The notes beneath the pieces were generated by a model. It ran no database searches. It saw nothing but the letters and a program-made list of their open reading frames with translations, and was not told the DNA's origin. 64,000 nt of DNA. It comes from Kaistia dalseonensis. Its GTDB lineage: Bacteria > Pseudomonadota > Alphaproteobacteria > Rhizobiales > Kaistiaceae. Positions 35,018 through 50,203 of this stretch are shown piece after piece; the first letter of the stretch is position 1; every line of letters begins with the position of its first letter. The stretch lies in contig NZ_JAUSVO010000008.1 of NCBI RefSeq assembly GCF_030814715.1, forward strand, positions 1-64,000, written 5' to 3'. Made by a program: the position numbers and the translations under genes.

Positions 35018-35326
35018 TCAATATTCGAGATCGTAGACCAGCAGGCCGTCAATGCCGCCCTCGGCCGCCGAGACGATCTTGGCGCCGACCTTGGCGTGTT
35101 CCTCGTCGGCGAGATATTGGTCGCGCGCCGCGGCCGTGCGGAACGTCACGATGAAGCCTTCCGAAAAGCCCTTGTCGAGACCTTCCGGGCTCGAATTCGG
35201 GGCAATCACAATCCCGGTCAGGCCAGGTACGCGCGGCTTCAGTGCCTGCAAGGCGTTATAGATATCGTCCTTCATCCCATCGGTCGTGTCGGCGCGATAG
35301 TTGATGAAGACGCAATGGCTGATCAT
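35018..35326 (-). CDS. Dabb (stress-responsive A/B barrel) domain protein
   Basis: A 102-residue single-domain protein (HCVFINYRADTTDGMKDDIY, LKPRVPGLTGIVIAPNSSPE, GFIVTFRTAAARDQYLAD), which matches the dimeric ferredoxin-like Dabb family. Members range from small-molecule cyclases to stress proteins of unknown role. It begins 23 bp after the GMC gene and shares its LacI-type operator, so it belongs to the catabolic regulon. Confidence 0.82.
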   Translation of the reverse strand: MISHCVFINYRADTTDGMKDDIYNALQALKPRVPGLTGIVIAPNSSPEGLDKGFSEGFIVTFRTAAARDQYLADEEHAKVGAKIVSAAEGGIDGLLVYDLEY

Positions 35327-35349
35327 CGAGCTTTCCTGTCCCTTGATGC

Positions 35350-36984
35350 TTAGGCGGCCTTTGGCCGTGATTCTTCGATCGCTTCGACCGTAACCCGGGG
35401 CAGGGGCGTCGCGCCACGAATAAGATCAGCCGCCTTTTCACCGATCATGATGCTCGGGGCGTTGGTGTTGGACGAATTCACCATCGGCATGATCGAGGAA
35501 TCGGCGACCCGGAGGCCCGCAAGGCCGCGCACGCGCAACTCCGGATCGACCACGGCGAGATCGTCAATGCCCATCTTGCAGGTGCCGGCCGGGTGGTGAT
35601 CGGTCTTGGCATGGCGGCAGCCATAGTCGAAGAGGTCCTTGTCCGAGAGGACATTCGGGCCCGGCAGCCGCTCGGCCATGACGAAGGGGGAAAGCGCCTT
35701 CTGCTGCATGATTTCGCGCGCGAGCTTCAGCCCCTCGAGCGACATGGCCCTGTCATAGGGGTCGGCCCAGTAATTCGGATCGATCAGCGGGGCGGCGGCG
35801 GGATCGCTCGAGGCGAGGCGCACCGTGCCGCGCGAGCGGGGGCGGAGGAAGGCGGAGTTCAGCGTCACGCCGGCATTCTTCAGCTTGGCGACGCCGGCCT
35901 CGATGCCGGAGCCGAGGCCGAGATGAAACTGGATATCGGGCGAGCGCGCCTCGGGATCGGCATACCAGAACCCACCCGTCTCGAAGAGCGAGGAGGCGAC
36001 CGGCCCTTGCTTGAACAGGAGATATTCGAGCCCGGCCCAGGCCGAGCGATACCATTTGGCGTAGCCGTCATAGGTATGGTCGCCGGTGCATTCGGCGATG
36101 ACGAAGAGATCGAGATGGTCCTGCAGATTGCCGCCGACGCCGGCGAGATCGTGGACGACCGGCACGCCGACGGATCGAAGATGAGCGGCCGGCCCGATGC
36201 CCGATTGCAGCAGCAGCTTGGGCGAGCCGATCGCGCCGCTCGAAACGATCACCTCGCTCCCGGCGTGATGGGTCTGCTTCGTGCCGCCCTCGATCGTCTC
36301 GACACCGATCGCCCGGCCCTTCTCGACCAAGATACGCAGGACCTGCACGCCGGTGCGAATGGTGAGATTGGCGCGGCCGCGCGCCGGCTTCAGATAGCCC
36401 GTTGCGGCAGAGGAGCGGCGGGCATGCTTCTGCGACAATTGGTAGAAGCCGATGCCGGCCTGGCGCGCGCCGTTGAAATCGAAATTGTAGGGAATGCCGC
36501 GTTCCTGCGCCGCCCGCATGAAGGCGTCACAGATCGGCAACGGCGCGACCGGCATGGAGACGCCGATCGGCCCGCCATAGCTGTGAAAGGTATCGTTGAA
36601 GCGCTGATTGTCCTCGGCGCGCTTGAAATAGGGCAGCACCTCTTCATACGACCAGCCACGGCACCCGGCCTGGGCCCATTCGTCATAATCGAGGCGGTTG
36701 CCGCGGGTGTAGAGCTGCGCGTTGATGGTCGAGCCGCCGCCGATGACCTTTGCCTGCGTATAGCGCAGCACGCGGCCGTTCATGTGCTTCTGCGGCACGG
36801 TCGACCAGCCCCAGGAGCCGATGCCCTTGGTCATCTTGGCGAAGCCGGCCGGCCAGTGATAGAGCGGGTTCCTGTCTTCGCCCCCGGCTTCCAGCAGCAG
36901 CACCTTGACCGCCGGATCCTCCGAAAGCCGCGCCGCGATCGCGCAGCCGGCCGGCCCTCCACCGACGACGATATAGTCGACCAT
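35350..36984 (-). CDS. GMC-family FAD-dependent alcohol/choline-type dehydrogenase
   Basis: A 544-residue flavoprotein. VGGGPAGCAIAARL binds FAD, VIGGGSTINAQLYTRG is GMC signature 1, and SSGAIGSPKLLLQSGIGPA is signature 2. At the C-terminus the catalytic His is in DHHPAGTCKMG, and the partner Asn in SNTNAPSIMIGEKAADLI. It oxidises a primary or secondary alcohol, passing electrons to a quinone or oxygen. A CGGGAGGAGG ribosome binding site fixes the start at 36984. TTGGAACGTTCCAA lies 38 bp upstream of it. Confidence 0.9.
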   Translation of the reverse strand: MVDYIVVGGGPAGCAIAARLSEDPAVKVLLLEAGGEDRNPLYHWPAGFAKMTKGIGSWGWSTVPQKHMNGRVLRYTQAKVIGGGSTINAQLYTRGNRLDYDEWAQAGCRGWSYEEVLPYFKRAEDNQRFNDTFHSYGGPIGVSMPVAPLPICDAFMRAAQERGIPYNFDFNGARQAGIGFYQLSQKHARRSSAATGYLKPARGRANLTIRTGVQVLRILVEKGRAIGVETIEGGTKQTHHAGSEVIVSSGAIGSPKLLLQSGIGPAAHLRSVGVPVVHDLAGVGGNLQDHLDLFVIAECTGDHTYDGYAKWYRSAWAGLEYLLFKQGPVASSLFETGGFWYADPEARSPDIQFHLGLGSGIEAGVAKLKNAGVTLNSAFLRPRSRGTVRLASSDPAAAPLIDPNYWADPYDRAMSLEGLKLAREIMQQKALSPFVMAERLPGPNVLSDKDLFDYGCRHAKTDHHPAGTCKMGIDDLAVVDPELRVRGLAGLRVADSSIMPMVNSSNTNAPSIMIGEKAADLIRGATPLPRVTVEAIEESRPKAA

Positions 36985-37022
36985 CTCTCTTCCTCCTCCC
37001 GTTCTCGTCCGAGTGGACAAGA

Positions 37023-37036
37023 TTGGAACGTTCCAA
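37023..37036. promoter_or_regulatory. LacI-type operator (site A), before the GMC-Dabb genes
   Basis: The perfect 14-bp palindrome TTGGAACGTTCCAA, 38 bp before the GMC start and 9 bp after the SDR stop. The same sequence occurs at 47985-47998 and 50103-50116, the latter before the lacI-type gene. Confidence 0.8.
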
Positions 37037-37045
37037 AATAGGGGC

Positions 37046-49035: not shown

Positions 49036-50078
49036 TGTCTTCTCCCTCCCTCGGCGCCGCAACTCGCCCTGACGACGAGGTCGACATCCGAAACGAACTC
49101 TTCCGGCCGTGTATCGCCATGGATCATGCGCAGCACCTGATGCGCGGCGCGCTCGCCGAGCGCTGCGGTATCGACATGAACCGTGGTGAGCGGCGGATTG
49201 GTGTGGCGCGCCTCCGAAACATCGTCGAAGCCGACCAGCGCGAAATCGCGTCCGGCGGTGAGGCCGCGCCGTTCGAGGCCGGAAAGCGCGCCAAAGGCGA
49301 CGACGTCGTTGAAGCAGAGCGCGGCCGTGGCAGGCTCGGCCCTGTCGAGCACGCGGCCGACGGCATTGAGGCCGCATTCGCGGTTCGGCGGCCCCTCGAT
49401 GATGAGATCGGGCTCGATCGGCAGGCCGGCGGCGATCAAGGCCGCCTGAAAGCCGCCGCAGCGATCATTCTGCGCGATCATGTCGGAATAGCCGCCGAAG
49501 AAGGCGATGCGCTTGTGGCCGAGCGCGATCAGATGCTCCGTCGCCCGCCGCGCGCCGCGCAGATTGTCCGGCGTCACGGATGAGAACTTGCGACCGGCGA
49601 GGCGGCGCATGGCGAGCACGATCGGCACGCTGAGGCCGGCGAGGGATTCGATGTCGGCCGGCTTGGTCCCGCGCGCCGGGCAGATGATCAGGCCGGCAAT
49701 ATCGTGCTCCGACATGGAGCGCAGCACCTCGGCCTGGCGCTTCGGGTTCTCGGTCGTATTGGCGATGAAGGGAATATAGCCGGCGGTGTGGAACACATGT
49801 TCCATGCCGACGGCGAGCTCGGCGAAGAACGGGTTCGCGAGATCGTTGATCACCATGCCGACAATGTTGGAGCGGGCGCTCCTCAAATTGGCGGCGCCGC
49901 GATTATAGACGTAGCCGAGCTGTTCGATCGACGCGACGACCTTCTCGCGCGTCTCCGCCTTCACCAGCGGGCTCGCCTGCAGGACGAGCGACACCGTCGA
50001 CTTCGACACGCCGGCATGACGGGCGATGTCGATCATCGTGACGCGTGGTCCGGGTCCTGGCGTTTCCCTGGTGTTCAT
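49032..50078 (-). CDS. LacI-family transcriptional regulator
   Basis: A 348-residue repressor-type protein. The N-terminal HTH ([20 protein letters not shown], about 15-35) is followed by the hinge helix [16 protein letters not shown]. The periplasmic-binding-protein-like ligand domain runs to the end ([36 protein letters not shown]). A perfect TTGGAACGTTCCAA 25 bp before its start and matching sites elsewhere point to self-regulation and control of the 35-50 kb cluster. The ligand is probably a sugar-like compound. Confidence 0.92.
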
Positions 50079-50102
50079 CGGTGCCTTGTGGCGCTCTCGA
50101 AT

Positions 50103-50116
50103 TTGGAACGTTCCAA
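50103..50116. promoter_or_regulatory. LacI-type operator (site C), before the lacI-type gene
   Basis: A perfect TTGGAACGTTCCAA, 25 bp before the regulator ATG, indicating autoregulation. Confidence 0.8.
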
Positions 50117-50189
50117 TTCATAGAGAGGCGAAATGGCGGCGTCAAGCAGATCGAGCGGCGAAATCAACAGGGTGAAATCGTCATATGAA

Positions 50190-50203
50190 TTGGAACGATC
50201 CAA
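50190..50203. promoter_or_regulatory. Secondary LacI-type operator (site D)
   Basis: TTGGAACGATCCAA has one mismatch to sites A-C. Its centre is 87 bp from site C, so it may act as an auxiliary operator. Confidence 0.55.

Follow-up and report, generated by a model that had tools for sequence, protein, structure and literature searches.

A palindromic operator, together with the repressor gene that it precedes, appears to organize a catabolic regulon in Kaistia dalseonensis. The DNA analysed, referred to below as the window, is a stretch of 64,000 nucleotides (contig NZ_JAUSVO010000008.1, positions 1 to 64,000), and the genes and sites in question lie between 35018 and 50203. Judged from sequence comparison, it is probable that this is, as a whole, a local and autoregulating LacI regulon for the import and breakdown of a 1,5-anhydro sugar, with cooperating repressor dimers as part of the arrangement. 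The lacI gene at 49032-50078 would encode a repressor that binds TTGGAACGTTCCAA. One dimer, sitting on the start region right behind the -10 box of the lacI promoter, would block RNA polymerase; a second would occupy a helically phased site 87 bp upstream, and most likely a short loop of DNA lets the two act cooperatively. Other operators would repress a CoA-transferase operon (a site apparently gained in this species) and a gene pair encoding a GMC-type oxidoreductase (GMC1) and a Dabb-domain protein. The substrate imported and degraded would be 1,5-anhydro-D-fructose or one of the compounds formed by its reduction, 1,5-anhydroglucitol or 1,5-anhydromannitol, and we infer that a 1,5-anhydro sugar, or a product of such a sugar, lifts repression. 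The 1,5-anhydro sugars considered here are made from starch, and their breakdown pathway is little known.

The 14-bp palindrome is present in three exact copies (37023, 47985 and 50103) and in one copy with a single mismatch (50190). These coordinates agree with those of an earlier note on this DNA, as do the intergenic positions of the sites relative to lacI, the CoA-transferase gene and GMC1, at the starts of minus-strand units; all four copies are upstream of minus-strand genes. The sites and the predicted promoter are as follows.

50117..50145, minus strand: predicted lacI promoter, with -35 TTGACG (50140-50145), -10 TATGAA (50117-50122) and a 17-bp spacer.
50103..50116, no strand assigned: proximal operator of the lacI promoter, TTGGAACGTTCCAA, 24 bp before the lacI start; orthologues also have a site near the lacI start.
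50190..50203, no strand assigned: distal operator, reading TTGGATCGTTCCAA on the minus strand (one mismatch), 87 bp out from the proximal operator.
47985..47998, no strand assigned: operator upstream of the CoA-transferase operon, in the gap that separates the Gfo/Idh stop (48031) from the start of the CoA-transferase gene (47918).
37023..37036, no strand assigned: operator before GMC1-Dabb, between the stop of the short-chain dehydrogenase (SDR) gene (37046) and the GMC1 ATG (36984).

The earlier note had noticed no further copy, and a scan of the window with up to three mismatches to TTGGAACGTTCCAA indeed returns four matches in all, namely the three exact ones and the one with a single mismatch; shuffled windows gave a mean of 1.02 matches, with four or more in one of 100 shuffles. 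The note had named a palindrome common and random in the genome as a finding that would refute its proposal; this is not what the genome shows. In 5,180,488 bases on 11 contigs, only the four cluster sites are found at up to one mismatch (one match for a reversed-pattern control), which rules out chance repetition. At up to three mismatches there are 59 matches against 36 in the control, so that the weaker matches are mostly chance and only the near-perfect sites are informative. The exact 14-mer occurs in 5 of 28 genomes of the family (3, 1, 1, 1 and 4 copies), the control once in one genome. A role as transcription terminator is not favoured, because the sites are located at promoters and the stretches read show no run of T behind the palindrome. 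A literature search for TGGAACGTTCCA returned no paper with that sequence, curated regulon databases being outside this search.

There is evidence, beyond position and repetition, that this LacI recognizes the palindrome, as the earlier note had supposed; the predicted binding is supported by co-conservation and by covariation between recognition helix and operator. The protein has an N-terminal helix-turn-helix of the family (PF00356, E 2e-15, 56.6 bits against a cut-off of 27) and a periplasmic-binding-like effector part (PF00532 and PF13377, both above cut-off). An even palindrome with a central CG is the rule for LacI-family operators (PMC4052901, section 9), and in 148 distinct sites with at most two mismatches the C is found in 100% and the G in 99%. 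Protein searches for relatives covered 397 genomes of the order, 385 of the class and 398 of the phylum, plus named genomes, and also 247 genomes of one family within the order, presumably the Rhizobiaceae; the non-redundant counts given here (86, 90, 81 and 77) differ by thinning threshold and length filter. Among 122 loci whose LacI has a VSKSTVS helix, duplicates included, the 620 bp upstream of lacI contain two sites with at most two mismatches in 117 cases, one in four and none in one; for non-redundant loci of this type, two sites are found in 81 of 86. By comparison, a site at up to two mismatches precedes lacI in none of 25 homologues without VSKSTVS. Fourteen of these 25 have RA in place of KS at amino-acid positions (AA) 15-16, and five of the 14 (L069, L071, L075, L079 and L083) have palindromes of the TTTAGATCGATCTAAA type upstream; a strict test found no such palindrome in the other nine, which has to be set against our interpretation. 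Those RA-type homologues that do have TTTAGATCGATCTAAA-like palindromes look like a natural specificity switch inside one subfamily. Between the two operator types, the half-site changes at nucleotide positions (NT) -5 and -2, and NT-6 remains T, the residue at AA20 being Leu. Published LacI-family correlations, which pair AA15-16 with NT-5/-4, AA20 with NT-6, and AA55, AA15 and AA5 with NT-2, fit this pattern (PMC2978694).

The sites also accompany the KS-type lacI from genome to genome. In 18 whole genomes of our choosing, 41 sites are found at up to one mismatch (six in the control), and 39 of the 41 are within about 18 kb of a KS-type lacI; the other two are on contig 6 of genome G025 and in genome G1162, where no close lacI is known. 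This bears on whether another LacI-family protein might bind the sites, given that the K. dalseonensis genome has 17 further proteins above the PF00356 cut-off and one more match below it. The KS..L helix is absent from all 17, and their 1.5-kb upstream regions contain no site with under four mismatches; a paralogue was thus rejected as binder on its recognition helix and its own upstream sequences, and we regard such a binder as highly improbable. The nearest named subfamily, and the best NCBIfam match, is MalI (PRK10014), although the score of 252.3 bits is below the curated cut-off of 310. A TVSL-type recognition helix is common to both; MalI has other target genes. Of 109 genera sampled in a single family, 27 have close relatives of the present LacI, and the same predicted switch is kept in dozens of related genera.

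The proximal operator begins at the base right behind the -10 TATGAA and so covers the expected start site of lacI. In 90 non-redundant loci, assessed for a TTGAC-like -35, it is found behind the -10 in 11, in the spacer in 54 (a class for which TTGCC, TTGTC and TTGAT were accepted too) and over the -10 region in 14 (operator 14-25 bp behind TTGAC); 10 loci fit no class and one has no site. When stretches are drawn at random from these loci, TTGAC turns up in 0.2% of those 9 bp long and in 0.5% of those 13 bp long. As the operator overlaps the promoter in most loci, the natural reading is that the repressor blocks RNA polymerase at the lacI promoter.

The E. coli lac system has a start-proximal operator plus an upstream operator about 90 bp away, and shares with the present system a LacI-family repressor, palindromic operators in this arrangement and a phased spacing; the operator sequence is different, and the genes controlled here are a 1,5-anhydro-sugar cluster. 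The idea of phasing came from early spacings near 63 + 11k, and was then set for testing. Three levels of thinning, based on the similarity of protein and spacer, left 43-52 lineages, and 40 draws were made per level. When spacings of at most 200 bp are considered, a period of 11.1-11.15 bp fits best (resultant 0.52-0.55); against a control that jittered spacings by up to 5 bp either way, with 200 such sets for every draw, p was <=0.005 for all 40 draws at every level. The predicted phase holds in 26 confirmation lineages unlike the discovery set (up to 200 bp, p about 0.004-0.006). Once longer spacings are admitted, p in the confirmation lineages varies with the period used: it ranges over 0.001-0.048 for a limit of 260 bp and over 0.0075-0.071 for a limit of 600 bp, the weakest values (0.048 and 0.071) being those for a period fixed at 11.0 bp. 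The phase taken from 50 non-Kaistia spacings also predicts the seven Kaistia spacings (p=0.0012; p=0.013 for five collapsed values). A period of about 11.1 bp matches the in vivo helical repeats of lac loops, 11.08 and 11.60 bp per turn (PMC1762422, Table 1). Tandem or cooperative sites are known in the LacI family, with peaks at 13, 22 and 32 bp (PMC4052901, section 9); the accessible part of that source contains no description of a phased series at 63-200 bp.

Several observations count against looping. The best period varies with the range considered (10.8 bp when spacings are capped at 150 bp, 11.2 bp when the cap is 260 bp); a harsher collapse, in which spacings within 2 bp of one another are chained, leaves the phasing at p=0.06-0.16; and spacings of 200-450 bp taken alone have no phasing. 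The repressor also lacks the C-terminal tetramerization helix of E. coli LacI: its residue 338 aligns with residue 327 of the 360 in the E. coli protein and it ends at 348, and in 90 loci the median end position is 354, with 365 or more in only three. A loop would then need another contact between dimers. Moreover, most relatives have a gene for a DHDPS-family aldolase divergent from lacI, and in 33 of the 39 loci with that arrangement it starts 31-70 bp from the distal operator, so that the operator pair need not exist for looping at all. The two upstream operators could instead be independent single blockers, originally of two divergent promoters, with the phasing left over from shared ancestry. 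We consider this account a serious one, if less likely than not: loci that lack the divergent gene are phased as well (p=0.008 for 14 spacings, of which Kaistia contributes about half), and so is Kaistia taken by itself, where no divergent DHDPS-family gene was found in the loci listed; the phasing, moreover, survives thinning by protein and spacer similarity; and it recurs in the independent set. The helically phased pairs (about 11.1 bp, up to 200 bp) point to looping or cooperation between the two dimers.

Conservation of the other operators is uneven. A site before GMC1 at up to two mismatches is present in 11 of 73 loci, comprising seven from Kaistia (the window included), one from Prosthecomicrobium and three of Rhizobiaceae type, and it is kept in all seven Kaistia loci fetched. 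At the same threshold, sites are found before the second GMC-type gene (GMC2) in two of 74 loci and before the Gfo/Idh gene in one of 73. The CoA-transferase site is not conserved, occurring in one of 74 loci, the window itself, and this weighs against the regulon as drawn. In several other Kaistia loci the CoA-transferase match begins within a few bases of the reductase stop, and K. hirudinis has about 130 bp between the two genes and no site; in the present genome the gap is 112 bp (47919-48030), with a perfect operator. It is possibly an internal promoter and operator gained recently. Two loci hold three more sites at up to one mismatch that are assigned to no gene.

The genes of the cluster, all on the minus strand, number 13, as the earlier note had counted: lacI, a Gfo/Idh reductase, CoA-transferase, hydratase, aldehyde dehydrogenase, four ABC transporter genes, GMC2, SDR, GMC1 and Dabb.

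49032..50078, minus strand: lacI-family repressor, 348 aa (PF00356 with PF13377/PF00532; AA15-16 KS, AA20 L).
48031..49035, minus strand: Gfo/Idh protein, predicted orthologue of 1,5-anhydro-D-fructose reductase (PDB 2glx, 4koa; key residues kept).
46326..47918, minus strand: CoA-transferase, YdiF type (PF01144; PDB 2ahu, E 1e-101).
45554..46333, minus strand: enoyl-CoA hydratase/crotonase family (PF00378; best solved match 5zai, 3-hydroxypropionyl-CoA dehydratase).
44038..45564, minus strand: aldehyde dehydrogenase, start approximate (PF00171).
42729..43979, minus strand: sugar ABC transporter substrate-binding protein (PF01547; PDB 4r2b, E 1e-164).
41565..42575, minus strand: sugar ABC transporter permease (PF00528).
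40639..41526, minus strand: sugar ABC transporter permease (PF00528).
39518..40606, minus strand: ABC transporter ATPase, UgpC/MalK type, start approximate (PF00005; NF008653 above cut-off).
37822..39333, minus strand: GMC-type oxidoreductase 2 (PF05199/PF00732; nearest solved structures FAD glucose/fructose dehydrogenases, 6a2u E 2e-32).
37046..37825, minus strand: short-chain dehydrogenase (PF13561; NF009386 above cut-off).
35350..36984, minus strand: GMC-type oxidoreductase 1, choline-dehydrogenase-like (PF00732/PF05199; PDB 9lq0, E 1.5e-117).
35018..35326, minus strand: Dabb-domain protein (PF07876).

The longest mechanical open reading frame for GMC1 (to 37074) would cover the palindrome; we place the start at 36984, at an ATG that closely precedes the FAD-binding motif.

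The function of the regulon is suggested by the gene that follows lacI, which by sequence is an orthologue of 1,5-anhydro-D-fructose reductase. Along its full length its product matches the solved reductases 2glx (E 6e-141 over residues 4-334) and 4koa (E 2e-138), both from Sinorhizobium, the next solved structure being at E 6e-37. Seven positions for NADPH binding or catalysis (S10, A13, S33, R38, K94, D176 and H180) are all present in the window protein and are kept in 63-68 of 68 proteins. The orthologous lacI of S. meliloti Ak57 is followed by a reductase with a single residue different from solved 4koa, and thus a near-identical copy of the solved enzyme is found within this type of locus. 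Given the orthology and the Ak57 copy, the regulon most likely serves aerobic catabolism of a 1,5-anhydro sugar. A role in a deoxyribonate pathway (PMC6365646) was dropped after the reductase had been identified.

Gene order is conserved across genera. In 77 non-redundant long loci, the CoA-transferase is found in 73, the hydratase in 70, GMC2 in 67, the aldehyde dehydrogenase in 66 and GMC1 in 63, and a Gfo/Idh match in 70, of which 64 are at least 61% identical; a DHDPS-family gene is present in 55 (mostly divergent from lacI) and a glycerate kinase in 21. Loci close to contig or fetch ends may miss genes in these counts. Two findings here weigh against the assignment. The cluster is patchy within the genus, five same-genus genomes being listed without a match to the locus. 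A close reductase is missing in 13 of the 77 long loci, and eight of these 13 retain the CoA-transferase, hydratase, transporter and GMC genes, so that the substrate need not be 1,5-anhydrofructose. The regulon would then stand, with the reductase acting on another 2-keto sugar or a cyclitol and the cluster degrading, for instance, another polyol or a sugar acid. It could be added that the published route from the reductase to mannose (PMC12441222) has no step for a CoA-transferase, a hydratase or an aldehyde dehydrogenase. We nevertheless consider such a substrate unlikely, since the top two solved matches are both 1,5-anhydro-D-fructose reductases with the key residues kept, the S. meliloti locus holds the one-residue variant of a solved enzyme, and the transporter is of sugar type.

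In the published aerobic route the reductase is followed by a P450-like step to mannose, for which the enzyme is unidentified (Kuhn 2006, via PMC12441222, section 5.1); the 2025 review likewise has the aerobic route past the reductase relying on a P450-like enzyme that is still unidentified (PMC12441222). The part of that review dealing with the Sinorhizobium reductase covers the enzyme and the P450-like step, and has no such regulon; the orthologous enzyme, in Ak57, sits in the same type of locus as here. The route uses no CoA-transferase or hydratase, and none of the 13 cluster genes encodes a P450. The absence of a P450 from the cluster was rejected as an argument against a P450 route, because PF00067 matches are found elsewhere in all 18 genomes searched. 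The anaerobic gut route for 1,5-anhydroglucitol uses a phosphotransferase system (PTS) and the glycyl-radical protein YbiW/PflD (PMC12441222). It has the substrate class in common with the present cluster, but the 13 genes include neither a PTS nor a glycyl-radical enzyme and are instead based on an ABC transporter, flavin oxidoreductases and CoA. In the literature searched, no paper combines five of six cluster terms, and the titles and abstract openings listed for anhydrofructose mention no regulon or gene cluster.

We infer an oxidative, CoA-linked route that leads to glycerate, in which both the direction and the order of the reactions are our proposal, and the pathway marked by this regulon may be new. 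A more ambitious version, on which we are close to evenly divided but lean against, is that the 13 genes, together with the divergent DHDPS-family aldolase and the glycerate kinase of relatives, form a complete aerobic, non-phosphorylating, CoA-linked 1,5-anhydro-sugar pathway to glycerate and acyl-CoA that needs no P450, and that a dimeric LacI loops its promoter without a tetramer domain, from operators on one face of the helix, with the in vivo repeat of about 11.1 bp readable from genomes. A DHDPS-family relative does occur in this genome apart from the cluster (contig 4, about 374,300-375,700); the enzyme is 62% identical over 388 residues to that of the S. meliloti Ak57 gene divergent from lacI, and no operator within three mismatches was found nearby among the matches listed.

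Some further features of these loci are of interest in their own right. Many loci outside Kaistia (L113, L119, L122, L129 and others) encode a binding protein and a pair of permeases that share 76-92% identity with those of the window (40639-43979), the genes adjoining the transporter being about 50-77% identical; other loci have a version of the transporter with about 60% identity at the same place. The transporter cassette thus seems, on these identities, to have been swapped by recombination within a conserved operon. On pSymA of S. meliloti M162 (L209, 11998-22552), a related CoA-transferase and hydratase are found with glycerate kinase, acyl-CoA dehydrogenase, SDR, DHDPS-family and ETF genes and with no LacI annotated; this group is perhaps a sister pathway. 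Several intergenic gaps in and beside the cluster (42640-42700, 39360-39480 and 50380-50450) contain GC-rich inverted repeats such as CTCTCCCGCCGAGGCGGGAGAG, dispersed and REP-like in look.

With this regulon, 1,5-anhydro-D-fructose reductase would have some dozen candidate genes as neighbours, along with a transporter and a sensor-repressor, and the question of how 1,5-anhydro sugars are used aerobically would now be open to simple gene deletions. An aerobic enzyme acting on 1,5-anhydroglucitol is what a probiotic would need (PMC12441222). The phased operators, if read correctly, would preserve a natural trace of DNA looping for a repressor that lacks the known tetramer helix.

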